From the NCBI GenBank assembly GCA_021775315.1, contig JAJFIC010000096.1, forward strand, positions 1 through 61,669: 61,669 nucleotides of DNA, given 5' to 3'. Positions 47,282-58,696 of the stretch are shown one piece after another; position 1 is the first letter of the stretch, and every line of letters begins with the position of its first letter. The translations under genes and the position numbers were made by a program. The notes beneath the pieces are model-generated. The model had not been told where the DNA came from and ran no database searches. It saw only the letters and a list, made by a program, of their open reading frames with translations. The DNA is from Paracoccaceae bacterium (GTDB lineage Bacteria; Pseudomonadota; Alphaproteobacteria; Rhodobacterales; Rhodobacteraceae).

Positions 47282-48280
47282 ATGACAGACACATTGATCA
47301 GTTCCGATATTGATTTTGAAGTCGATGGAAAGCACACCGGATACCTGCGACTGCCGCATTCTGTCCATCGCAGCGCTTACGGTCGCATCCTGATACCTGC
47401 GGTGATGATCCGAAATGGCGACGGGCCAACGGCGCTGTTTATGGCTGGCAATCATGGCGATGAATATGAGGCGCAAATCGCGCTTGGCAAGCTTTGCCGA
47501 GAGCTGGAGGCCGCTGACATTCGCGGCCGCCTGATCATCCTGACGATGGCAAATTTCCCGGCGGCACAGGCAGGCACGCGGACATCGCCGATTGATGGCG
47601 GCAACCTCAACCGAACCTTTCCCGGCAATCCACTGGGCACCCCGACCGAGATGATTGCCCATTACATCGAAGAGGTTTTGCTGCCGAAATGCGACTATTT
47701 CTTTGATCTTCATTCTGGCGGCTCATCGCTATATTACCCGCCAACGCTGCTGCGCGGGTTGGGCCATTCGCCCCGCGAACGCGACGAACTGATCAATTTG
47801 CAGGCCGCTTTTGATGCGCCATATGCCTGGGTGTTCACCAGTGGCGGCGGGCGTGAAACCAAGGCGCGAACGGCCATGGGCGGGGCGGGACGCAAGGGCG
47901 TTATCACCCTGATGGCGGAACTTGGCGGTGGCGGCGCGGTATCCCCCGAAGTTTTGGCGCTGACGGAACGCGGTGTTCGCCGCATGCTGCACAGCATTGG
48001 CATGTTGCCCGGATATGAACCCGACGCGACCAATGGCACGCGCGAGCTGACGATCACCGACAGCGTTGTTGCCTATGATAACGGTCTGTTTGAACCGTTT
48101 TGCGACGTCGAGGACGAGGTTAAAGACGGCGATGCAGCCGGGCAAATCCATTTCCCGGAAGAACCATGGCGGGACGCAAAAACTGTGCGTTTCCAGCATG
48201 ATGGCATGGTGTTGTGCAAGCGGGTGCCCGGCCGGGTGGAACGTGGCGATTGCCTGTTTCAGGTTGGCAGCGACCTCTAA
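47282..48280 (+). CDS. DoeB-like zinc deacylase (AstE/AspA family)
   Basis: A 332-residue carboxypeptidase-like deacylase. Zinc ligands are His58 and Glu61 in GNHGDEYEAQ and His144 in FDLHSGGSS; RTSPIDGGNLNRTFPG is the substrate loop. The sequence resembles DoeB, which removes acetyl from N-acetyl-diaminobutyrate in ectoine breakdown. No other clear ectoine-degradation gene lies beside it, so the substrate is open. AAAGGAAG precedes the ATG. It is convergent with arsR, with 15 bases between stops. Confidence 0.82.
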   Translation: MTDTLISSDIDFEVDGKHTGYLRLPHSVHRSAYGRILIPAVMIRNGDGPTALFMAGNHGDEYEAQIALGKLCRELEAADIRGRLIILTMANFPAAQAGTRTSPIDGGNLNRTFPGNPLGTPTEMIAHYIEEVLLPKCDYFFDLHSGGSSLYYPPTLLRGLGHSPRERDELINLQAAFDAPYAWVFTSGGGRETKARTAMGGAGRKGVITLMAELGGGGAVSPEVLALTERGVRRMLHSIGMLPGYEPDATNGTRELTITDSVVAYDNGLFEPFCDVEDEVKDGDAAGQIHFPEEPWRDAKTVRFQHDGMVLCKRVPGRVERGDCLFQVGSDL

Positions 48281-48295
48281 GGTTTGTAACGCCGC

Positions 48296-48625
48296 CTAGG
48301 GGTGATCCAAAAGCGTCAGGATTTCGGCGCAGTTTTCAACCTGTCCGTTGCAGCAATCTTGTAGCATGAAACCGACCAGATCGTTCATGGTCGCTATATT
48401 GGCAGAATAATGAATTTCGCGCTGATGGCGTGTCGATTTCAACAAGCCAGCCCGCTTAAGCACGGCCAGATGGCCCGACAGGGTTGAAGGGACGATGCTC
48501 AGACGGCTTGAAATCTCGCCGACATTCAGGCTGTTGGGTTCCTCGCGCACCAGCATCCGATAAATCGACATCCGGCTGTCTTGCGCTAGGGCCGCGAAGG
48601 ATTCTATGGCTGAAAGTTGGTCCAT
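48296..48625 (-). CDS. arsR: ArsR-family arsenite-responsive repressor
   Basis: A 109-residue winged-helix repressor. The DNA-reading helix is in VPSTLSGHLAVLKRAGLL. The metal site is C-terminal: Cys91, Cys92 and Cys99 in DCCNGQVENCAE, as in the Acidithiobacillus ferrooxidans type of ArsR, not the CVCDLC site in the DNA-binding helix of E. coli ArsR. The start at 48625 is chosen over a frame opening 22 codons earlier, which would run through the operator dyad. It is divergent from the PLP dehydratase-to-arsA operon and should repress both. Confidence 0.88.
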   Translation of the reverse strand: MDQLSAIESFAALAQDSRMSIYRMLVREEPNSLNVGEISSRLSIVPSTLSGHLAVLKRAGLLKSTRHQREIHYSANIATMNDLVGFMLQDCCNGQVENCAEILTLLDHP

Positions 48626-48627
48626 AA

Positions 48628-48643
48628 TTCGGCAATACCCGAA
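48628..48643. promoter_or_regulatory. Putative ArsR operator
   Basis: TTCGG, six bases, CCGAA: a perfect inverted repeat ending 2 bases before the arsR start codon. A further TTCGG half-site lies at 48692-48696 closer to the divergent operon. The 150-base gap would let one repressor control both directions. Confidence 0.5.
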
Positions 48644-48775
48644 ATATCGAACCTTGACAAGGCAGCAGGCGCGATCTATTCGTTTTGACAATTCGGCAGA
48701 TGTCGATTTGATAGACTGACCGGAGCGTCAAACCCGAATGGTCTGAACATAATATTTAGGATAAGACGACACCCA

Positions 48776-49777
48776 ATGCAGCCGAGCCCCGAACAACTGC
48801 TAAACGCGCCAACGCTGGACGAGGTGCGAACCGCCGCCAAAACGCTGGCCGGTGTCATCATCCCAACCCCCCTGCTGCAAAACCCCGAGGTCAACGCCCG
48901 TCTCGGCGGTACCCTTTTGATTAAGAACGAGGCCATGCAGCGCACTGGGGCGTTCAAATTTCGTGGTGCGTATAACCGTATCAGCCAAATGGATCCGGGC
49001 CAAAAAGCGCGCGGGGTTGTGACCTATTCCTCGGGCAATCACGCGCAGGGCGTTGCAATGGCCGCAAATCTTTTGGGCACTTCTGCCCTGATCGTTATGC
49101 CGAGCGACGTTCCACAGGCCAAAATGGATCAGACAAGGGCGCTGGGGGCTGAAATTGTCACCTTTGAGCGTGGCGAGGTTGCCAGCGATGACGTGGTCGC
49201 GCGCCTTAGGGCGGAAACCGGGCGCATCATCGTCCCACCCAGCGAGGATCGGCGTATTCTGGCAGGCGCGGCAACGGTGTCGCTTGAGATTATTCAACAG
49301 GCAGACAGACCGATTGACGCGGTGCTGGTGCCATGTGGCGGTGGTGGTCTGACGGCTGCCAGTGCCATCGTGATGAACGCGCTATCGCCCGCCACACAGG
49401 TTTTCGGCGTAGAACCTGCGTTGTTTGACGACACCCGCAGATCGCTTGCGGCGGGCGAACGGTTGGCGAACCCTAAGGGCCAGAAAACCATCTGCGATGC
49501 GATCATGACGCCCATTCCCAACGCTCTGACGTTTTCCATCAACCAAACCCTGCTGACAGGCGTTCTGACTGTCACGGATGATGAAGTTCGCGCGGCAATG
49601 CTGTTTGCGTTTGAGAATTATAAGATCGTGGTGGAGCCCGGTGGCGCCGTTGGCCTTGCCGCTGTCCTTAGCGGGAAAATTGACATCAAAGGCAAGACGA
49701 TTGCCGTGGTCATCACGGGTGGCAACATTGATCCCGACCGGTTCGCGGCGGCTTTAAGCGCGGCCAGACAATCTTGA
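48776..49777 (+). CDS. Threonine/serine dehydratase-like PLP enzyme in the ars operon
   Basis: A 333-residue fold-type II PLP enzyme: Lys61 in RTGAFKFRGAYN, SSGNHAQGVAMAA, and the phosphate loop CGGGGL. The length and the lack of an ACT domain place it with catabolic threonine/serine dehydratases, hydroxyaspartate ammonia-lyases and EutB rather than biosynthetic IlvA. It is the first gene of the operon facing arsR; the next gene begins 15 bases after its stop. A role in arsenic handling has no precedent known to me and may be incidental. Confidence 0.85.
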   Translation: MQPSPEQLLNAPTLDEVRTAAKTLAGVIIPTPLLQNPEVNARLGGTLLIKNEAMQRTGAFKFRGAYNRISQMDPGQKARGVVTYSSGNHAQGVAMAANLLGTSALIVMPSDVPQAKMDQTRALGAEIVTFERGEVASDDVVARLRAETGRIIVPPSEDRRILAGAATVSLEIIQQADRPIDAVLVPCGGGGLTAASAIVMNALSPATQVFGVEPALFDDTRRSLAAGERLANPKGQKTICDAIMTPIPNALTFSINQTLLTGVLTVTDDEVRAAMLFAFENYKIVVEPGGAVGLAAVLSGKIDIKGKTIAVVITGGNIDPDRFAAALSAARQS

Positions 49778-49792
49778 AGAGGGAACGTTAAT

Positions 49793-50461
49793 ATGTTGCG
49801 AAGATTATTTGCTGAATGGCTGGGGTCATTTTCGCTGCTGGCAACAGTGATCGGTTCCGGCATCATGGCCGAACGATTGGCCGACGGGAATATCGCCATT
49901 GCGCTGCTTGGCAACACCATCCCGACCGGCGCAATTCTGGTCGTCCTGATCTTGGTGTTCGGCCCAATCTCTGGCGCGCATTTCAATCCGGCGGTGACGC
50001 TGGCCTTTGCCATACGCCGCGAAATCACCGCGCGGGATTCGGGCCTTTATGTGCTGACACAGATATTTGGCGGCATTTCTGGCGTGTTGATTGCCCATGT
50101 CATGTTTGACAATCCGCTGATTGATCCATCCACCACCGTGCGCGGCGGTCTTGGGCAATGGGTGGGCGAGTTTGTTGCGACCTTTGGCTTGGTCGGCACC
50201 ATCCTTGGCTGCCTGAAAGCCCGGCCTGAGGCGATACCCTATGCCGTCGGCCTTTATATCACCGCCGCCTACTGGTTCACTTCGTCGACGTCCTTTGCCA
50301 ATCCTGCCGTGACCATCGCGCGTGGGTTTTCCAACACGTTTGCCGGTATCCAGCCAGCGAACGTCGCCGCTTTTGTCGGCGTACAGCTTGTGGCTGCCTT
50401 GCTGGCCACGATCTTTTTTAACTGGCTGCTGGATGAAAAACCGTTGCGAGCCAAAGCCTGA
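49793..50461 (+). CDS. Aquaporin/MIP-family channel (AqpS-like) in the ars operon
   Basis: A 222-residue channel with six membrane helices and two NPA loops: GAHFNPAVTL (NPA 65-67) and SFANPAVTIARGF (NPA 170-172, Arg177 for the selectivity filter). Aquaporins in ars operons of alphaproteobacteria (AqpS) carry arsenite and can replace the ArsB pump by letting it flow out. AGAGGGAACG serves as RBS. Placement between the dehydratase and lyase genes supports an arsenite channel. Confidence 0.88.
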   Translation: MLRRLFAEWLGSFSLLATVIGSGIMAERLADGNIAIALLGNTIPTGAILVVLILVFGPISGAHFNPAVTLAFAIRREITARDSGLYVLTQIFGGISGVLIAHVMFDNPLIDPSTTVRGGLGQWVGEFVATFGLVGTILGCLKARPEAIPYAVGLYITAAYWFTSSTSFANPAVTIARGFSNTFAGIQPANVAAFVGVQLVAALLATIFFNWLLDEKPLRAKA

Positions 50462-50483
50462 TCCAACCCTGAAAGAACACCAC

Positions 50484-51701
50484 GTGCCACATCGGAAAAC
50501 AGTAACACCATTTGACCAACAGATCGCCCGGCGCGATGTGCCTGCGTTGAAGGTGCATCCCATGGTTCTGGGGCAAGACGGCGGAAACCTTTTTGCCGCC
50601 GGGGTGGCCGACATGGATTACAAGGCGCCACCTGCCGTTCTTGCGGCCATGCAAGAACGCCTTGATCACGGTGTTTTCGGCTATGAGGCAGTGCCGGCGC
50701 CGTTGATGCCCGCCCTGACCGATTGGTTGCACACGCGGCACGGTTGGCAAGTTGATGCTGCACATATTTTACGCGCGCCAAATGTCCTCAATATTCTGGC
50801 GATTGCGGCCTCGCTGTTTACGCAACCCGGCGACGGCGTGATTGTGCAACCGCCTGTATTCTTTGACTTTTTCGACATCATTCGGGAAAACAACCGCACC
50901 CTGATCTCAAACCCGCTAATCCTGAAGCATGGGCACTATGAGATGGATTTTGACGGGTTGGAAAAGCTGGCGGCCGATCCACGCGCCAAGATGCTGTACC
51001 TTTGCAATCCCCACAATCCGGTCGGGCGGGTCTGGACCAAGGCCGAACTCCGACGACTGGGTGACATTTGCGCGGCAAACGATGTGCTGGTGGTGTCGGA
51101 TGAAATTCACGGCGATATTGTTTTGCCGGGTCACACCTACACCCCGTTTGCCGCAATTGGCCCTGCCTATGCGGATAACGCGATCACCTGCCTGTCGCCT
51201 GCCAAAAGTTTCAACATCGCCGCGTGTTGTTCTGCCTTCACGGTGATTTCAAACGACGTGCGACGCAAGGCTTTTCAGGTCGAAAACAGCCGTCTGACGG
51301 TCAACAAAAACAACGCTTTTGCCAGTGCCGCGATGGTGGCCGCCTATTCGCAAGGCAGCGCGTGGCTGAACGACGTTTTGCGTTATCTCGACGGCAATCT
51401 GGCATTGGTGCGCACGCATCTGAGCACCATCTCCAAGGTCGATCTGATCGAACCCGAGGGGACGTTTCTGCTGTGGCTGGATTTCCGGCGGCTTGGGCTG
51501 TCGCCTGACGATCTGACCGCGTTTTTACGCCAGCAAGCGGGCTGGGCCGTGACCCGGGGCCAAGCGTTTGGTGTCGAAGGCGAAGGTTTCGCGCGGCTTA
51601 ACATTGCTTGTACACGCGCCGATTTAACCACTGCGCTGGGGCGGCTTTCCAAGGCAGTCGCAGACCATTCTATCATCAAGAAAACAGGAGATTTCCAATG
51701 A
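50484..51701 (+). CDS. PatB/MalY-type PLP C-S lyase or aminotransferase in the ars operon
   Basis: A 405-residue fold-type I PLP enzyme starting at GTG. Family marks: FAAGVADMDYKAPPAV, LCNPHNPVGRVW, VVSDEIHGDIVLPGH and the lysine Lys241 in CLSPAKSFNIAACC. PatB/MalY enzymes split cystathionine or cysteine S-conjugates, giving a thiol, pyruvate and ammonia. Its stop overlaps the arsD start (ATGA), so translation is coupled. A link to thiol conjugates of arsenite is possible but is inference. Confidence 0.86.
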   Translation: MPHRKTVTPFDQQIARRDVPALKVHPMVLGQDGGNLFAAGVADMDYKAPPAVLAAMQERLDHGVFGYEAVPAPLMPALTDWLHTRHGWQVDAAHILRAPNVLNILAIAASLFTQPGDGVIVQPPVFFDFFDIIRENNRTLISNPLILKHGHYEMDFDGLEKLAADPRAKMLYLCNPHNPVGRVWTKAELRRLGDICAANDVLVVSDEIHGDIVLPGHTYTPFAAIGPAYADNAITCLSPAKSFNIAACCSAFTVISNDVRRKAFQVENSRLTVNKNNAFASAAMVAAYSQGSAWLNDVLRYLDGNLALVRTHLSTISKVDLIEPEGTFLLWLDFRRLGLSPDDLTAFLRQQAGWAVTRGQAFGVEGEGFARLNIACTRADLTTALGRLSKAVADHSIIKKTGDFQ

Positions 51702-52099
51702 CTAACATAACCGTTTATGACCCGGCCATGTGCTGTTCCACAGGCATTTGTGGCGCCGAAGTTGACCAACATCTGGTGAATTTTGCCGCTGATCTTGATT
51801 GGCTGAAATCAAAGGGCGTCAACGTCACGCGCTTTAATCTGTCTCAGGAACCAGCCGAGTTTGCGACCAACGACAAGGTCAAATCTGTGTTGGAAAACGC
51901 CGGCGTTGAGGGCTTGCCAATTGTATTGATCGGCGACGTGATGCACTCAACCGGTCGCTACCCGGCGCGCAGCGAGTTGGCGGGTTTAACCGGTGTGGCC
52001 CACATCGCAGACGCCGCCAACGCCCCCAGTGCCAGCGCAGAAAGTGGCTGTTGTGGCGGCAGCACCGAAGCTGAAAAAACCGCATCAGGTTGCTGCTAA
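51698..52099 (+). CDS. arsD: ArsD arsenite metallochaperone
   Basis: A 133-residue ArsD. The arsenite-binding cysteines Cys12, Cys13 and Cys18 in AMCCSTGICG are at the same positions as in the plasmid R773 protein. C-terminal vicinal pairs Cys118-119 and Cys132-133 (SGCCGG and SGCC) are also present. It delivers As(III) to ArsA. AGGAGA precedes the ATG. Confidence 0.95.
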   Translation: MTNITVYDPAMCCSTGICGAEVDQHLVNFAADLDWLKSKGVNVTRFNLSQEPAEFATNDKVKSVLENAGVEGLPIVLIGDVMHSTGRYPARSELAGLTGVAHIADAANAPSASAESGCCGGSTEAEKTASGCC

Positions 52100-52137
52100 A
52101 CCTGTCCCGACCACTTCATTCAAAATCGAGTAGACCC

Positions 52138-53910
52138 ATGTTCAAAGACCTGCCCAAATTCGTTTTCTTCACCGGCAAAGGCGGCGTCGGCAAGACCTCG
52201 CTGGCCTGTGCCACCACGCTTGATCTTGCCAGCAAGGGCCACAAAATCCTGCTGGTCAGCACTGATCCGGCCTCAAATGTCGGGCAGGTTTTTGAGACCG
52301 AGATCGGCAATAAGATCACGGAAATCACCAAATGCCCCGGCGTGGACGCGATTGAGATTAACCCCGAAGAGGCCGCCGCAGATTACCGCGAACGCATCGT
52401 TGGCCCGATGCGGGGCATTTTGCCTGAGGTGGCACTTAGAAGTATCGAAGAACAACTTTCCGGTGCCTGCACGATTGAAATCGCGGCTTTTGACGAATTC
52501 ACGGCCCTGCTGACGGACAACGATCTGGTCGCGCGTTACGATCATGTGATTTTTGATACCGCCCCGACAGGCCACACGATCAGAATGTTGAAGCTGCCGG
52601 GCGCGTGGTCTGGGTTTCTGGAAGAAGGCAAGGGCGACGCGTCCTGTCTTGGCCCGCTGGCCGGGCTGGAAAAACAGCGCGACCGGTATGCATCCGCAGT
52701 GGATCGCCTGTCTGACAAAAATGAAACTCGGTTGGTTCTTGTGGCGCGACCACGGCATTCTGCGCTGGCAGAAGTTGGCCGAACGTCGGTTGAACTGGCC
52801 TCCATCGGTATTAAAAACCAGCAACTGGCGATCAACGGCATGATGCCGCAAAACACTGGTGATGATCCTTTGGCCAAGGCGCTGCTTAAACGAGATCAGG
52901 ACGCCTTGGCCGCGATGCTGCCCGAGGTTGCCGCCCTGCCCCGCACAACCTTTGCGTTGCGCCCGGAAAATCTGGTCGGCCTTGCGGCGTTGAAACGTTT
53001 TGCGGCAGGCGACGTAGATGCAGTTGCCAGTGCGACCGCCGCACCGTTGGAACACGCGGATTTCCCGACACTCGGAAACCTTGTCGATGATGTTGAAGGT
53101 CCCGGCAAAGGGCTGATCATGTTTATGGGCAAGGGCGGCGTCGGCAAAACCACAATTGCAGCCGCTGTCGCCACAGAACTCGCCGCGCGTGGCCATCAGG
53201 TTTTGTTGACCACCACCGATCCAGCGGCGCATATCAGCGAAACGCTGGCAGGCAGCCAGCCCGGCCTGACCGTCAGCAGGATCGACCCCGCAGTGGAAAC
53301 CGCGAATTACCACGCCGAGGTGATGGCAACCAAAGGCCGCGATCTGGATGATCAGGCGCGCGCAATGCTGGAAGAGGACCTGCGCTCACCCTGCACCGAA
53401 GAAATCGCGGTGTTTCAGGCGTTTTCCCGCGTGATCCGCGAAAGCAGCAAAAAGTTCGTCATCATGGATACGGCCCCGACGGGTCACACATTGTTGTTGC
53501 TGGACGCGACCGGGTCATATCACAAGGACGTTCTGCGCCACCAAGACGAGGCCAGCCGCGCCCGGATCACGACGCCGATGATGCGCCTGCAAGACCCCGC
53601 GCAGACCAAAATCATGATCGTCACCCTGCCGGAAACCACCCCGGTGCTAGAGGCGGCACATTTGCAGGAAGATCTTGGCCGTGCCGGGATTGAACCTTAT
53701 GGCTGGATTGTGAATTCCAGCCTTGCCGCTGCCGAAACAAGCCAGGATTTGCTGCGCAAACGCGCCCGATCTGAATTGACCCAAATCGCAAAAGTGCGGG
53801 ACGATCTGTCAAAACGCTACGCCGTTGTGCCGATGCAGGCGGTCGAACCTGTTGGGGTTGATCGGTTGAAAGGTTTGTGTGCCAGCCGTTCAGAACCAGT
53901 TGCTGCGTGA
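52138..53910 (+). CDS. arsA: ArsA arsenite-stimulated ATPase
   Basis: A 590-residue two-domain ATPase. Each half has a Walker A (TGKGGVGKT at 12-20, GKGGVGKT at 331-338) and a DTAPTGHT signature. The metalloactivation cysteines are present as Cys111, Cys170 and Cys419, matching C113, C172 and C422 of R773 ArsA. In known systems ArsA drives the ArsB or Acr3 pump, and no such gene is in this window. The start at 52138 is the natural one; an in-frame ATG at 52090 overlaps the arsD end. Confidence 0.95.
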   Translation: MFKDLPKFVFFTGKGGVGKTSLACATTLDLASKGHKILLVSTDPASNVGQVFETEIGNKITEITKCPGVDAIEINPEEAAADYRERIVGPMRGILPEVALRSIEEQLSGACTIEIAAFDEFTALLTDNDLVARYDHVIFDTAPTGHTIRMLKLPGAWSGFLEEGKGDASCLGPLAGLEKQRDRYASAVDRLSDKNETRLVLVARPRHSALAEVGRTSVELASIGIKNQQLAINGMMPQNTGDDPLAKALLKRDQDALAAMLPEVAALPRTTFALRPENLVGLAALKRFAAGDVDAVASATAAPLEHADFPTLGNLVDDVEGPGKGLIMFMGKGGVGKTTIAAAVATELAARGHQVLLTTTDPAAHISETLAGSQPGLTVSRIDPAVETANYHAEVMATKGRDLDDQARAMLEEDLRSPCTEEIAVFQAFSRVIRESSKKFVIMDTAPTGHTLLLLDATGSYHKDVLRHQDEASRARITTPMMRLQDPAQTKIMIVTLPETTPVLEAAHLQEDLGRAGIEPYGWIVNSSLAAAETSQDLLRKRARSELTQIAKVRDDLSKRYAVVPMQAVEPVGVDRLKGLCASRSEPVAA

Positions 53911-53977: not shown

Positions 53978-55219
53978 TTAATCCGAGCCTGACGGGATTT
54001 CCAGCTTTTGCATCTTTTGCCACAAAGTCGTGCGCGATACTTGCAGGATTTTCGCGGCTTTGCCGACCCGTCCGCCCGAGCGGACCAACGCATCGACGAT
54101 TTGCCGCCGCTCGGCGATATCGCGGGCCTCGGCCAAGGTCATGATCCGGTCGTCACTGGTCATGCGTTCGGGAAACAGATCGGCCGGTTGCAGGAATTCA
54201 CCCGTGGCATTTTCTGTCGCGGCCCTTAGGCGGGTGCGCAATTCACGGCCACCGCCGGGCCAATCATAACTGCGCGCCGCCTCTTCACTCAGGCGGCTGA
54301 TGCCTTGCAGCGGGGTTTCACGCCGGTGGTTGAGCGTTTCAAACAACTGCCCCATCAGCCAAACTGCATCAAGTGTTCGTTCGCCTAAAGGTGGTACCAC
54401 GATTTCCATCATGCCGATGAGGTCAAACAATTCTGACCGAAATCCGGACTGGGTCGATGTCGCCTGCTTATCCAGTCCGCAGGTGGCAATGATACACCCG
54501 TCAAATCCCGATTGCAGCACGTCAAGCAATGCCGATTGGCTGGCGTCGGGCAAACGGCTGAGCGTGTGTAGGAACAATGTGCCTTCACCGACCCGCGCCA
54601 CCGCGCCATCCGGGCCGAACAGGGCGGCATGAACATCCGGCACTCGGTCAAGATTGATGTTGACAAACGGCGCAGCACGGCGGTCCGAAGTGTCGTGTAT
54701 TCGCTGTGCAATCAGCGCCTTGCCCATACCCGGCCCGCCACGGATCAGCACCGGGCGACCGGTTTTAGCAGCCTTCAATGCCAAACTGTCAACACGCCTT
54801 GCCGCCGCCGAGATACCGGTTATCGGCGGGAATTCCTGTTGTTCACCACTGGAAAGCAACATGACGAGGCGATCCAGAAAGACCGAAATACTAAACGGTT
54901 TGGTCACGTAATCCACGGCCCCCGCCTGCATCAGGCGCACCGCCTGTTCAACATCCCCGTGGCCGGTGACGAACAAAAACGGCGGCGGGTCGGTGGTTTG
55001 GCATAGGGTGTTATACAATTCCTCGCCGCTGCCATCTGGTAGTTTTATGTCACAGATAACCACGTGAATAGGGGCAACCGGCGTGCGCAACGCCCCGATC
55101 GCGCGCTTAATGCGCTTGAGCCAGACAACCTCGGCGCCTTCCAGCGTCAAACGTTGCTCCAGCGAGTTTCCCATAAACTCGTCATCTTCCACCAGCGCGA
55201 TGCGATAACCTTTCAGCAT
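53978..55219 (-). CDS. NtrC-like response regulator with decayed AAA+ motifs
   Basis: A 413-residue regulator: receiver (Asp12, Asp13, phosphoacceptor Asp57, Lys107), AAA+ region (about 134-360) and a Fis-type HTH (GRVGKAAKILQVSRTTLWQK). The ATPase part is degenerate: Walker A reads GGPGMGKA, the Walker B acidic pair is His218-Thr219 in GTLFLHTLSRLP, and the GAFTGA loop that touches sigma-54 is missing (FGPDGAVARV in its place). It should therefore work without sigma-54, as TyrR- or HupR-type proteins do. It overlaps the kinase gene by 7 bases. Confidence 0.87.
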   Translation of the reverse strand: MLKGYRIALVEDDEFMGNSLEQRLTLEGAEVVWLKRIKRAIGALRTPVAPIHVVICDIKLPDGSGEELYNTLCQTTDPPPFLFVTGHGDVEQAVRLMQAGAVDYVTKPFSISVFLDRLVMLLSSGEQQEFPPITGISAAARRVDSLALKAAKTGRPVLIRGGPGMGKALIAQRIHDTSDRRAAPFVNINLDRVPDVHAALFGPDGAVARVGEGTLFLHTLSRLPDASQSALLDVLQSGFDGCIIATCGLDKQATSTQSGFRSELFDLIGMMEIVVPPLGERTLDAVWLMGQLFETLNHRRETPLQGISRLSEEAARSYDWPGGGRELRTRLRAATENATGEFLQPADLFPERMTSDDRIMTLAEARDIAERRQIVDALVRSGGRVGKAAKILQVSRTTLWQKMQKLEIPSGSD

Positions 55220-56640
55220 TGCGTCACCTCGTCATTGACCGGAATGGGCAAAGTGACCGAAATCCGGGTTCTGCCTGCGGTTTTTTTGGTCCTGATCACG
55301 CCGCTAAGTTCGGCCACCAGATCACGCACCAGCCGCAATCCCTGCCCCCCGCCGGGCGCGATCGGGGCTGCTGACATCAGGCGAAACCGGGCCTCGTCTG
55401 ACAGGCCGGGGCCGTTGTCAACTACCGACAGTTCAAGATGCGGGCCTTGTTGTTCCATCTTCAAGGCGATTTGCCCGGCAGCCGCTGAAGCGTTCAACAG
55501 AAGGTTCAGGATGATTTGGCGCATGGGTCCGGATGAAAACCCCGACATCAACGAACCTTCAACGGAAACCTGCCAGTCAAGATACTGGTGTTTCAGATTT
55601 ATTTCCGGGCTTATCAACAATTTCAGATCATCGAAGTCCTGCAGTGACAAAGCGGCACCTGCCCGATCAAGCCGGTTTTGGTCAAGCGTCGCCCTTACGA
55701 TGTCGCGCAAATGCGCCAATCCACGCGACAGCAATTCGGCGGATTGGCGCACGACCGCTGGCTGGTCGGCAAATTTGTGCAATGTATCTGTGATATTCAG
55801 CATGCCACCCAGCGGATTGTTGACCTCATGCGCCAACGACGAGGACAGGCGCCCGAGGCTGACAAACCTTTCGCGTTCTGCAAGGCGTCGCTCGGTTTCC
55901 GCTTTTGCCTGCACCGCAACGGCCATCTCGTTATAGGTATTGATTAGCCGGGACAGTTCCGAATTGCCATTTGGCAGATCGGAAACCGGCAAGGGTTGTG
56001 GCGCACCAGCGGTTTCATGCATGCGCCGCGCCAGACGTGTGATCGGCATCAGCATTCGGCGCATCATCCAATAGCCGATAAGCGCCAGACCCAACGTGGC
56101 AACGCCGTTGGCCAACACCAGCAACCGCCCGATGCGCATGCGTTCCGATATCAGATCGGAAATATCAAGCTCGGTCAGAACCTGCCCGACATTGCGGCCC
56201 TGATACATCAAGGGTGCCGTTAACAGGATGCTGGTGCTGGACCCGGTCGCGGACAATTCCTGCGGTGAACGGGCACCGCGCGCCAATTCACCGATCATAC
56301 TGTCAACCGGCGCACGCACGGGATCAGATGCCGCCAGAACCCGCCCGTTTTCATTGCCAACGGCGGTAAAAACCAACCGCTGGCCCTGGGTGCCAAGCGA
56401 GGCGCGGGTCAACGTGTCGTAAACCTCCCAAACGTCATCACGCAAAACATGCGGGCCAAGTGCGACCGACAACGCCTCGACATGCATTTTGGCAATCTCG
56501 CGGATGCGCGCGTCCTGCAAATCATCAAGCGTGTTCAGAACCAGTTCTGCCGCCACGACCGCCAGTAAAACCATCAATCCTGCGGCCAGCAACGGCACGC
56601 GAATTGCAAGGGAAATATGTTGCAGGGATGGCATCATCAC
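55213..56640 (-). CDS. Membrane sensor histidine kinase of the three-gene sensory unit
   Basis: A 475-residue kinase starting at a GTG that overlaps the binding-protein stop. It has two membrane helices (about 12-32 and 171-193) enclosing a periplasmic domain of roughly 140 residues, a HAMP-like segment, HisKA with His271 in SLAHEVNNPLGGM, and HATPase_c (NLLLNASAA, DNGPGL, GGGQGLRLVRDL). The SBP-kinase-regulator order parallels AioX-AioS-AioR. The signal probably comes from the periplasmic protein encoded just upstream. Confidence 0.88.
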   Translation of the reverse strand: MMMPSLQHISLAIRVPLLAAGLMVLLAVVAAELVLNTLDDLQDARIREIAKMHVEALSVALGPHVLRDDVWEVYDTLTRASLGTQGQRLVFTAVGNENGRVLAASDPVRAPVDSMIGELARGARSPQELSATGSSTSILLTAPLMYQGRNVGQVLTELDISDLISERMRIGRLLVLANGVATLGLALIGYWMMRRMLMPITRLARRMHETAGAPQPLPVSDLPNGNSELSRLINTYNEMAVAVQAKAETERRLAERERFVSLGRLSSSLAHEVNNPLGGMLNITDTLHKFADQPAVVRQSAELLSRGLAHLRDIVRATLDQNRLDRAGAALSLQDFDDLKLLISPEINLKHQYLDWQVSVEGSLMSGFSSGPMRQIILNLLLNASAAAGQIALKMEQQGPHLELSVVDNGPGLSDEARFRLMSAAPIAPGGGQGLRLVRDLVAELSGVIRTKKTAGRTRISVTLPIPVNDEVTQC

Positions 56641-57503
56641 GTGCCTTTATAATCGTGCAAACGCAGCGCAATGCCGTCAAACAGGCTGGGCGTTGCCGGG
56701 ATCAGACCGTCAAGTTGCAGCATTTGAAGTGCAGCGCGGCCTCTGCCTGTTTGGCCCAATTCCAGCAACACCTTTTGTAAGGCGCGTATCTTGTCGTCGC
56801 CCATCCGGTCGGTACGGGCACAAAACGGCGGAAAACCCAGCCATTCGGATTTGGTGACAATTTTGGTGCGCTGGGTGAGTTTGGGTTCCTCTGAGGTCAG
56901 CACCTCCCAGACATATCCATCGACACTGCCGGACCGCACAAGCCCGTCTGACACCGCCCTGACAACATTCCGGTGACCGTTGGTGAATATGGTACGACTG
57001 AAGAACCCCTCGGGATGCAGTCCTTTACGCACCAGATCAGATGCGGTGACCAGATAGCCCGAGTTTGAATCCGGATCAGAAAAGGCATGTGTTCCACCAT
57101 TCAGGTTTTCAAGCGACTGCGCAGGGTCGTCTTTTTCTGCGATCAGATAGGACTGATAAAGCGGTTTGCCGTTCCAGACCGGAACTGCAAGCAACGAAAG
57201 GGCAGCTTTGTGTTGCAGGTACGGATAGCCACACAGCCAAGCCGCATCGACCGATCCTTCAAGCAACAAACCCGTCACTTCTTGATAGGTCCGGCGCTGT
57301 TCCAACTCGACCGCCATGCCCATGGCCGTGCTGAGGGCGTCGCGCAATTGGTCGATGACCGCCACGTCATTATCCAGAAAAACCGGCGTCAGCCCCAGAC
57401 GAAAACTGCCGCCTGCCCGCGCCTTAAAAGCAGACGGGACAGTTGCGGCAAATGCCGCGGCACTGGCAGAACGGATAATTGTGCGACGTGTAATCGGGGT
57501 CAT
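56637..57503 (-). CDS. PhnD-family periplasmic binding protein, likely sensor partner (AioX-like)
   Basis: A 288-residue protein with a Tat-type signal (RRTIIRSASAAAFAATVPSAF). The mature part is PhnD-like: FRLGLTPVFLDNDVAVIDQL, GSVDAAWLCGYPYLQHKAAL, TNGHRNVVRAVSDGLVRSGS. No ABC permease or ATPase lies next to it; instead it overlaps a histidine kinase gene, so it is a sensory rather than transport component. Cys91 in WLCGYPY is a candidate ligand, since AioX binds arsenite through one cysteine. The start at 57503 has AAGG 8 bases upstream. Confidence 0.82.
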   Translation of the reverse strand: MTPITRRTIIRSASAAAFAATVPSAFKARAGGSFRLGLTPVFLDNDVAVIDQLRDALSTAMGMAVELEQRRTYQEVTGLLLEGSVDAAWLCGYPYLQHKAALSLLAVPVWNGKPLYQSYLIAEKDDPAQSLENLNGGTHAFSDPDSNSGYLVTASDLVRKGLHPEGFFSRTIFTNGHRNVVRAVSDGLVRSGSVDGYVWEVLTSEEPKLTQRTKIVTKSEWLGFPPFCARTDRMGDDKIRALQKVLLELGQTGRGRAALQMLQLDGLIPATPSLFDGIALRLHDYKGT

Positions 57504-57760
57504 TGAGCAAACCTTGAGATAGGATTGGGTACAAAGGCCACTCGTCAAATACCGACACTATGCGCAGATTTTCATCAACCGCAAAGCCTTATTAACGGGC
57601 TAAGCGGTGCGGCATTTTCAAGCGGTAGCGACGGCCTGGCGCAATCGTTCATCACCACATATCTGCTGGTTGTAACGAGGCCGGTTTTCCGATCGCATCA
57701 GGTCTCCAATAATCGCATTGCTGCGTGGCGCGCCGTAAGCGGAATGTATAGGAATGGGCA

Positions 57761-58696
57761 ATGGCCCTGATTCCCGTACTCATCTCAATCGCTCCGATCT
57801 TTTTCCTGATCGTTCTGGGATATCTTTTGCGTCGCAATGGTATTCCGAATGTCGAGTTCTGGAACATGAATGACAAGCTGGTCTATTGGGTGCTGATGCC
57901 GGCCCTTCTGTTTCACAAAACCTCAACCATCGAACTTTCGCCCGCGCTGGTCGGGTCCTATTCGGTGGTCATTATTGGCGGCTTTTTTGCCGCTTTGCTC
58001 TATGGTCTGGGCGTGGCAAAGCTGGCGGGTCTGCCGGGTGACAGCGCCAGTTCTGTGATGCAGGGCTCGGCGCGTCACAACGCCTTTATCGCGCTTTCAA
58101 TCGCCGGGAGCCTGTTTGGCCCAAGCGGATTATCCCTTGGGGCGCTGGCTATGGTACTGTTGATCCCGGTGACAAATCTGGCCGTCGTTCCCCTGATGGT
58201 CGTGATGAACCAGAAGGGCAGAAAAGGCAAAATCCTGCCTATGGTGCTGAGCGATCTGGGGCGCAACCCGCTGATTTTATCGGTGCTGGGTGGCGTTTCA
58301 TTCAACCTTTTGGGCGTCGGCGAGGTGCCGGTTCTGCACGATACGGCGCATCTGTTGGGCAACGCGGCGCTGCCTATTGTCTTGATGTGTGTCGGCGCCA
58401 ATTTGCGTCTGCGGGCGATGCGGGCATCGGCCCTGCCGCTGGTGCTATCGATCAGTGGGAAATTCATCGTTTTTCCACTGATCACCGTGGGATTGGCGAT
58501 GATATTGCAGCTGAGCGAACTGGAAACGATGGTCGCCCTGCTGTTCAGCGCCTCGCCCACCGCGTCGTCGGCCTATACGCTGTCGCGACAAATGGGCGGT
58601 GACGCGCCGTTGATGGCGGCGATCACGACGATTGAAACAGCGTTGGCTTTCCTGACTTTGCCGCTGTCGATTTTACTGGTCAAAATGCTTTTCTAG
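57761..58696 (+). CDS. AEC-family permease
   Basis: A 311-residue protein with about ten membrane segments, starting ISIAPIFFLIVLGYLLRRNG and containing QGSARHNAFIALSIAGSLFG and LPIVLMCVGANLRL, as in auxin-efflux-carrier family proteins of bacteria (malate/malonate type). Divergent from the sensor binding protein. Whether it belongs to the arsenic region is unknown. Confidence 0.88.
   Translation: MALIPVLISIAPIFFLIVLGYLLRRNGIPNVEFWNMNDKLVYWVLMPALLFHKTSTIELSPALVGSYSVVIIGGFFAALLYGLGVAKLAGLPGDSASSVMQGSARHNAFIALSIAGSLFGPSGLSLGALAMVLLIPVTNLAVVPLMVVMNQKGRKGKILPMVLSDLGRNPLILSVLGGVSFNLLGVGEVPVLHDTAHLLGNAALPIVLMCVGANLRLRAMRASALPLVLSISGKFIVFPLITVGLAMILQLSELETMVALLFSASPTASSAYTLSRQMGGDAPLMAAITTIETALAFLTLPLSILLVKMLF

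Follow-up and report, generated by a model that had tools for sequence, protein, structure and literature searches.

The classical AqpS-type arsenic resistance (ars) operon has the gene order aqpS-arsC-arsH, and in operons of the arsRDA type ArsA energizes ArsB pumps as their ATPase and, according to some evidence, ACR3 pumps as well. Here we describe an ars operon from a Paracoccaceae bacterium (assembly GCA_021775315.1) in which arsD and arsA stand with an AqpS-type channel and with the genes of three amino-acid enzymes, namely, a deacylase, a dehydratase-like pyridoxal phosphate (PLP) enzyme of the PALP family and a PatB/MalY-type C-S lyase. The operon lies on contig JAJFIC010000096.1 (C107), which was analyzed over its entire length of 61,669 bases (the window) and belongs to a genome of 3.69 Mb in 111 contigs, with a completeness of 100. 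As far as literature searches show, it is a so far undescribed variant of the AqpS-type arsenic operons. No report of it was found in the open-licence PMC literature; a survey of 685 ars operons counts 18 aquaporins, all of them stand-alone transporters, and mentions no such enzymes in the available part of its text (PMC4435449), while a survey of ArsA homologues uses none of the terms aquaporin, MIP family, dehydratase or lyase in the available part of its text (PMC2963123).

With the AqpS operon of the Sinorhizobium meliloti type, the window shares ArsR and an AqpS-type aquaglyceroporin as the operon's only transporter; at the sequence level, the As(III)-type cysteines of ArsR and the adjacent channel of the AqpS type place it among the AqpS-type ars operons. 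It differs in the addition of the deacylase, the PALP enzyme and PatB and in the position of arsD-arsA, which come last. The S. meliloti plasmid that we examined has the order arsR-arsC-aqp-arsH. With the arsRDA operons that carry ArsB or ACR3, the window has in common an ArsD and an ArsA that score above curated cut-offs and retain the arsenite cysteines, but neither pump stands alongside, ArsA falls into a set of its own, and an AqpS-like channel is the sole permease found (of three searched) in 16 of 22 genomes in which PatB accompanies arsD-arsA. The S-alkylcysteine and S-(2-succino)cysteine salvage systems of Bacillus subtilis (scm/yxe, ytn and yha) are alike in the deacylation of N-acetyl cysteine compounds and in the breaking of S-adducts. 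However, the available part of their description gives M20 deacetylases, whereas the window deacylase is of the AspA type (PMC12757645), the N-acetyltransferase and flavin monooxygenase of salvage are not among the window operon genes, and the arsenic control differs.

Gene organization of the locus

A single unit on the forward strand faces arsR (positions 48296 to 48625, reverse strand), which encodes a repressor of 109 amino acids matching NF033788, with a CC-x6-C motif near its C terminus. The unit comprises the genes of a fold-type II PLP enzyme resembling serine/threonine dehydratases (48776 to 49777; PF00291), an AqpS-type aquaglyceroporin (49793 to 50461; PF00230), the PatB/MalY-type lyase (50484 to 51701; GTG start), the arsenite chaperone ArsD (51698 to 52099) and the ATPase ArsA (52138 to 53910), which are separated, in this order, by gaps of 15 and 22 bases, an ATGA overlap of 4 bases and a gap of 38 bases. 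A preliminary description of this DNA had given the same families and spacings for the five genes, and these were all borne out, but it had omitted from the unit the recurrent gene of the AspA/AstE-type (DoeB-like) deacylase (47282 to 48280, forward strand; PF24827), which is convergent with arsR in the window and in several relatives opens the divergent operon. Nor had it remarked on the paired operators, the cysteine pair of PatB or the adjoining AioXSR-like sensor, all described below. Chance or a misreading of the gene order is ruled out by the gene calls, the family matches and the recurrence in other loci. The PLP genes do not appear passenger-like, and the operon is real, unusual and recurrent.

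Recurrence of the gene set

The deacylase, the PALP enzyme, the AqpS-type channel and PatB form a recurrent but variable set. A scan of genome contigs with the window ArsD, restricted to the best 80 of 159 relatives and made without regard to neighboring genes, gave 22 loci with PatB in a run with arsD-arsA (L003 to L015, L017 and L019 to L026). The preliminary description had made its reading depend on the PLP genes being kept beside arsDA in relatives, and this is what these loci show. Sixteen of them belong to Rhodobacterales kin, 4 to alphaproteobacteria, one to Robiginitomaculum and one to SAR324. The channel is present in 14 and a PALP enzyme in 17, and ArsB was found at a single locus, L009, where it takes the exact place of the channel. 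No ACR3 was seen adjoining PatB-arsDA in the 22 loci, 7 of which lie on contigs that stop inside arsA or within 350 bases of its end (L003, L005, L006, L013, L015, L020 and L025). L011 and L012 have the order arsR-arsD-arsA-PALP-aqp-patB; thus, the gene set stays together through rearrangement. Among the remaining loci, L016 lacks PatB and combines arsD-arsA with the other PALP type (PALP2, see below), and L029 carries PatB, the deacylase, arsR and the dehydratase approximately 4 kb upstream of a usual arsD-arsA-acr3. An ABC transporter by the PLP genes of L029 was rejected as a member of the unit, since it fits general amino-acid importer models best and no like transporter was seen in the other runs.

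A search that started from PatB and ignored arsenic genes gave matches at an E value of 1e-110 or better in 14 of 394 genomes of the family and in 4 of 385 genomes of the class, with the own genome included in both; ArsD was found in 2 of 198 family genomes, the own genome included, and PatB at 1e-90 in 3 of 72,556 plasmid records. After removal of the own genome and of repeats (L004 and L003), 17 loci were left. Arsenic genes adjoin PatB in 8 of these (L113, L115, L116, L118 to L121 and L128), a deacylase match is present in 9 (as fragments in L118 and L119), and a dehydratase match is present in 8 (as fragments in L113 and L119 and at a contig end in L120). The fullest form, with arsR facing deacylase-dehydratase-aqp-patB-arsH, occurs in L116 and L128, the latter being the Ruegeria sp. 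YS9 plasmid NZ_CP102411.1, for which the gene order is that annotated on the record. Parts of the unit are thus present in environmental isolates: Ruegeria sp. YS9 has the arsH form with aqp, and Pseudohalocynthiibacter aestuariivivens BS-W9 has the arsDA form, with an ACR3 at another place and without aqp in the operon. arsC and arsH, both features of the AqpS-type operon that were not found in the window, appear in these sister operons (arsC in L118, L119 and L120; arsH in L116, L118 [in part], L119, L120 and L128), and in the window arsD-arsA occupy the place that arsH or arsC-arsH hold there. Partial matches resembling decayed arsR, deacylase or dehydratase genes were seen in the otherwise kept operons of L118, L119 and L113. 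On a plasmid of Rhodobacteraceae bacterium SC52 (L129), a lone PatB gene lies beside the phosphonate-type ABC transporter genes phnC, phnD and phnE.

ArsD and ArsA

ArsD meets its family score (NF033727, 125.9 bits; cut-off, 90) and has Cys12, Cys13 and Cys18, which are kept in all 23 operon-type loci read. ArsA exceeds the cut-off of TIGR04291 (846.3 bits; cut-off, 650), with two P-loops and with Cys111, Cys170 and Cys419, which we take to be the counterparts of the known arsenite cysteines and which are kept in the 19 operon-type rows listed (of 20). The alignments are in agreement with the earlier statement that all arsenite-binding cysteines are retained in both proteins.

In a tree of 75 ArsA rows, from which stretches of 400 residues or fewer were excluded (L005, L020 and L025 among them) and in which L029 and L088 represent one locus, the window type fell into one set of 22 rows with a support of 100/99, and 21 of the 22 are PLP-linked. 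The remaining member is L018, from a gammaproteobacterial contig that ends about 320 bases after arsA. For its part, the PLP-labelled ArsA of L029 lies outside the set, among ACR3-linked rows. The clustering of the PLP label in the tree was matched by none of 500 shuffles, a result to which near-copies alone can give rise. Cys581, near the C terminus of ArsA (codon 53878 to 53880), is found in 18 of the 19 operon-type rows listed and in 2 of the 34 other rows listed; of these 34, 21 lack an aligned residue at this position. The L018 contig ends in a frame with CPFC that, on visual inspection, resembles glutaredoxin.

PatB and its cysteine pair

PatB passes the subfamily model TIGR04350 (399.8 bits; cut-off, 340), and alignment to solved relatives indicates that it contains the catalytic residues of the solved C-S lyases. 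Lys241 and Arg371, by alignment the putative PLP lysine and carboxylate-binding arginine, are invariant in 18 aligned sequences. PatB is predicted to be a cysteine S-conjugate beta-eliminating lyase.

Seven and eight residues past Lys241 lie Cys248 and Cys249 (codons at 51225 to 51230), a pair that is invariant in the 18-row alignment and present in 40 of 41 loci, L124 having CA instead of CC. After the lysine motif, the family thus reads A-C-C here versus GLQ in four solved relatives (of 84 matched). In two solved PatB proteins the residue eight positions after the lysine (Gln238 or His241) is located at the PLP phosphate, according to the available part of their description (PMC13197776). 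Judging from the alignment, Cys249 is the predicted counterpart of this residue, which would place the cysteine pair next to the PLP phosphate. Two other stretches are conserved: FFD at 126 to 128 is present in all 39 loci covering that part, and Arg358 in 38 of 41, the exceptions being L117, L124 and L125, all of them without arsenic genes. Every arsenic-linked PatB read has Arg358, as do 6 of the 9 without such a link. Both FFD 126-128 and T357-R358, unlike the corresponding residues of the solved PatB proteins and near the active site, suggest a substrate other than plain cysteine.

Deacylase and PALP enzymes

The 10 proteins of an NCBIfam profile run included the two enzymes encoded at either side of arsR. 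The best solved relatives of the deacylase are the AspA/AstE-type proteins 3cdx and 3na6 together with DoeB (6twl), and it fails the equivalog of the DoeB N-acetyl-diaminobutyrate deacetylase, TIGR02994 (246.9 bits versus a cut-off of 402.7). For the dehydratase-like enzyme, the nearest equivalog is threo-3-hydroxyaspartate ammonia-lyase (312.9 bits versus a cut-off of 452), and no ammonia-lyase equivalog cut-off is passed among the matches listed (25 of 37 families). Since the two enzymes pass none of the cut-offs listed, their names cannot reveal their substrates. Ectoine/hydroxyectoine catabolism (EutB and EutE/DoeB), which provides some of the nearest named models for both, was set aside as the meaning of the pair because the scores are far below both equivalog cut-offs.

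The PALP slot is filled either by the dehydratase-like type or by the cysteine-synthase-like PALP2, which stands with PatB in 13 loci and scores below all cut-offs; both types were never found together in the 43 loci compared. PALP2 (for instance, L010:4907-5956) has a C-x3-C motif (CVFPCPD) near its C terminus in 12 of the 13 copies listed, the 13th (L015) being a fragment.

Gene contexts of the deacylase were taken from 32 matching plasmid records, among which three relatives (48 to 49% identity) were chosen for being annotated. An amino-acid ABC transporter accompanies the relatives in Nitratireductor and Mesorhizobium, along with a cystathionine-beta-lyase-like enzyme in the former and a threonine-synthase-like PALP enzyme in the latter; the Paraburkholderia relative stands with a GNAT protein, two LLM monooxygenases and a transporter. 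Because of these neighbors, we read the deacylase and PatB as candidate enzymes for the breakdown of N-acyl cysteine S-adducts; the contexts recall S-alkylcysteine salvage, as far as the available parts of its descriptions go (PMC9706529, PMC12757645).

ArsR and the control region

The CC-x6-C motif of ArsR is present in 20 of the 22 copies listed and is broken in the other two (L118 and L119). ArsR 6j05 is both the best Protein Data Bank (PDB) match and the best solved relative, and its CC and C align with those of the window protein with one residue fewer between them. In the control region, a motif scan revealed a putative ArsR operator, TTCGG-N6-CCGAA, at 48628 to 48643 (site 1), and motif scoring a second one at 48692 to 48707 (site 2), 64 bp from site 1, which has the second-best score in the 61.7-kb window though outside the training set. 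Exact matches to an extended 18-base form of the operator exist at 2 places in the genome; the sole copy outside this region is at G000:C105:2730-2747.

Pairs of such sites 64 to 65 bp apart were found in the control regions of 14 loci (the window, L004, L005, L008, L013, L014, L020, L022, L024, L026, L115, L119, L128 and L130). In L010 the second site is weak, and in L011, L012 and L016, where ArsR is of another cluster, no site rose above shuffles. L130 (Salipiger sp. CCB-MM3) keeps the site pair at a deacylase-dehydratase-PatB trio, and its gene table, described by the makers as incomplete, lists no arsenic gene in 19 kb. This suggests that the trio itself is controlled by such an ArsR.

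Permeases and the exit of arsenite

The window channel is 62% identical to the S. meliloti plasmid aquaporin encoded between arsC and arsH, in accordance with the AqpS type assigned to it previously, and its best PDB match is NIP2-1. L009 has ArsB in its slot and L119 has ACR3, and hence the aquaporin is likely to serve as the arsenite exit, a role that we consider probable for the AqpS-type channel of this operon.

The window was reported earlier to lack ArsB, ACR3, an arsenate reductase and ArsH, and tblastn indeed gave no match in it with single references for ACR3, ArsB, ArsH, ArsJ, AioA and AioB and two for ArsC; of its open reading frames, 50 were compared with Pfam (thresholds of 1e-12 or 1e-8), and none of these fits an ArsB- or ACR3-type model. 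In the rest of the own genome, we found one unlinked ACR3 (C56:33865-34851), no ArsB, no ArsH above its cut-off and two ArsC-family matches over the Pfam cut-off, of uncertain kind. An acr3 gene under the same ArsR would have spoken against the earlier reading, but the ACR3 region contains no matching operator at one mismatch, and upstream of ACR3 none rose above shuffles.

The same permeases were searched for in 25 genomes, those of L003 to L026 and L029. An AqpS-type channel at an identity of at least 56% was found in 19 of them, and ArsB over its cut-off in 1, with weaker matches in 3 more. Among the 22 PatB-arsDA genomes, 3 have ACR3 (L004, L011 and L014), 1 has ArsB (L009), and 18 show neither; an AqpS-type channel is present in all but two of these 18, and the two, L003 and L013, show none of the three permeases. 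Completeness is not given for the carrier genomes and 21 of the 22 are metagenome bins, so that each absence is weak evidence.

A neighboring AioXSR-like sensor

On the opposite strand, 67 bases from the end of arsA, lies a set of AioX-AioS-AioR-like genes (53978 to 57548). It encodes an AioR-like sigma54-type response regulator, convergent with arsA (53978 to 55219; PF00072, PF00158 and PF02954), an AioS-like histidine kinase (55213 to 56640; PF02518) and an AioX-like periplasmic protein (56637 to 57548). The latter is 66% identical to its Paracoccus seriniphilus homologue, and its best PDB match is AioX 6esk (281.9 bits), with which Cys106, in WLCGYP, aligns at the AioX cysteine, presumably the arsenite-binding residue. 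It is predicted to be an arsenite-sensing AioX homologue. The order of sensor, kinase and regulator and the AioX cysteine are as in the AioXSR-aioBA loci of Rhodobacterales, but AioA and AioB were not found on the window contig by tblastn with one reference each. Three Rhodobacterales plasmids carry a similar trio and, next after it, genes with the annotation arsenate reductase (azurin), another name for arsenite oxidase, or molybdopterin-dependent oxidoreductase.

Among the other loci compared, an AioX-like match was present only in L065 (40%), and the sensor trio is therefore regarded as a neighbor and not as a member of the unit. A sigma54 promoter for the AioR-like regulator was discarded, as 5 matches to the consensus were found versus 4.3 expected by chance. 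Divergent from the AioX-like gene is that of an AEC-family permease (Mem_trans; 57761 to 58696), with no like gene among the other loci compared.

Possible function of the operon

The reading that we put forward, tentatively and with close to even confidence, is that of an arsenite-induced ars operon of the AqpS kind that took in a three-enzyme module for cysteine conjugates; an action of the trio on cysteine-type adducts is, in itself, a somewhat less certain proposal. As(III) would bind the CC-x6-C motif of ArsR and so open the unit. ArsD would pass As(III) to ArsA, away from the thiols of the cell, and As(III) would leave by the AqpS-type channel, possibly with the assistance of the unlinked ACR3 in the own genome. 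The deacylase would free the amino group of N-acyl cysteine-type adducts, PatB would cleave their C-S bond to yield a thiol, pyruvate and ammonia, and the PALP enzyme would work on the same or a neighboring amino acid. The cysteine pair beside the PLP phosphate might let As(III) contact PatB as a ligand, a product or an off-switch. In this way, the trio may replenish thiols, by restoring or recycling them, or may break down thiol adducts under arsenic stress.

Several observations weigh against this reading. None of the three enzymes has a known substrate, arsenic-bearing or other, the broad subfamily cut-off is the only one that PatB passes, and the annotated deacylase relatives were selected for their annotation. 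The ArsD query was taken from the window operon, so near relatives are over-represented among the 80 loci; even there, no more than 6 of the 22 PatB-arsDA loci show the deacylase, with traces in 2 more, and the channel was not seen in the operons of L004, L008, L013, L014 and L019. Only a single operator site, with one mismatch allowed, was found in the control regions of L023, L029, L113 and L116, and none at one mismatch in L017, L019 and L118. Nor does any arsenic gene stand beside PatB in 9 of the 17 loci of the PatB search, and 8 of these 9, with PatB alone or with the deacylase (L114, L117, L122 to L126 and L129), showed no operator in the 300 bases upstream, which counts against a strictly arsenic role; PatB thus appears to have a role outside arsenic stress or to be controlled in trans. 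Finally, the unlinked ACR3 could serve ArsA in trans, and ACR3 over its cut-off was found in 6 of the 25 genomes searched.

These ACR3 genes, 3 of which fall among the 22 PatB-arsDA genomes, are what would be expected if ArsD and ArsA were ordinary, driving an unlinked ACR3, with the channel handling internal arsenite and the amino-acid enzymes belonging to general metabolism that came under ArsR by chance. The occurrence of trio members without arsenic genes agrees with this explanation, but 18 of the 22 genomes (21 of the 22 being metagenome bins) show neither ACR3 nor an over-cut-off ArsB, 16 of them with an AqpS-type channel, the own ACR3 region carries no operator, and co-occurrence through slot exchanges and rearranged orders (L011 and L012) is unexpected for passengers; we therefore consider it unlikely. 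An equally unlikely explanation, in our judgment, is a supply of sulfide or thiol, in which the deacylase and the PLP enzymes would yield cysteine and H2S (N-acetylcysteine to cysteine to sulfide) that bind As(III) as thioarsenite or chelate it, with ArsDA and the channel doing the rest. PatB-type enzymes can be cysteine desulfhydrases, the cysteine-synthase-like PALP2 fills the PALP slot in the 13 PatB loci, though below all cut-offs, and the deacylase adjoins PatB in 9 of the 17 loci. On the other hand, each sulfide made from cysteine costs one thiol, a neutral-solute channel is not obviously a carrier of thioarsenate, and FFD 126-128 and T357-R358 suggest a substrate other than plain cysteine.

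The cysteine pair at the cofactor in 40 of 41 PatB loci could also be understood if the deacylase and PatB or the PALP enzyme acted on an arsenic-bearing amino acid, N-acylated or not, from which PatB would eliminate As(III) onto the pair for transfer to ArsD. ArsD-ArsA or ArsH are often encoded 3' of PatB, Arg358 is present in every arsenic-linked PatB read (although also in 6 of 9 unlinked ones), and ArsH acts on organoarsenicals, according to the available parts of two reports (PMC6205960, PMC9137774). However, the arsenate reductase in the sister operons L118, L119 and L120 points to inorganic arsenic. We know of no common natural arsenic-bearing amino-acid substrate of that kind and of no precedent for the elimination of a C-As bond by a PLP enzyme, and such a breakdown of organoarsenical amino acids seems improbable. 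Just as improbable is a version in which the trio and arsDA form one arsenic line, the PatB cysteines taking As(III) from a cysteine-type or arsenic-bearing amino-acid adduct and handing it to ArsD and ArsA, with ArsA working with the AqpS-type channel; if true, it would mean a new enzyme step and a new partner for ArsA.

The operon makes two questions accessible. In the set of ArsA proteins that stand with PLP enzymes, an aquaglyceroporin is in most cases the sole arsenite permease found in the genome, of three searched, which makes testable the existence of an ArsA that works without ArsB or ACR3. It likewise becomes testable whether Rhodobacterales regularly employ amino-acid chemistry, in the form of cysteine-adduct removal or the supply of thiols, to resist arsenic, and the recurring combination of genes is a hint that bacteria may handle arsenic by a step not yet described.

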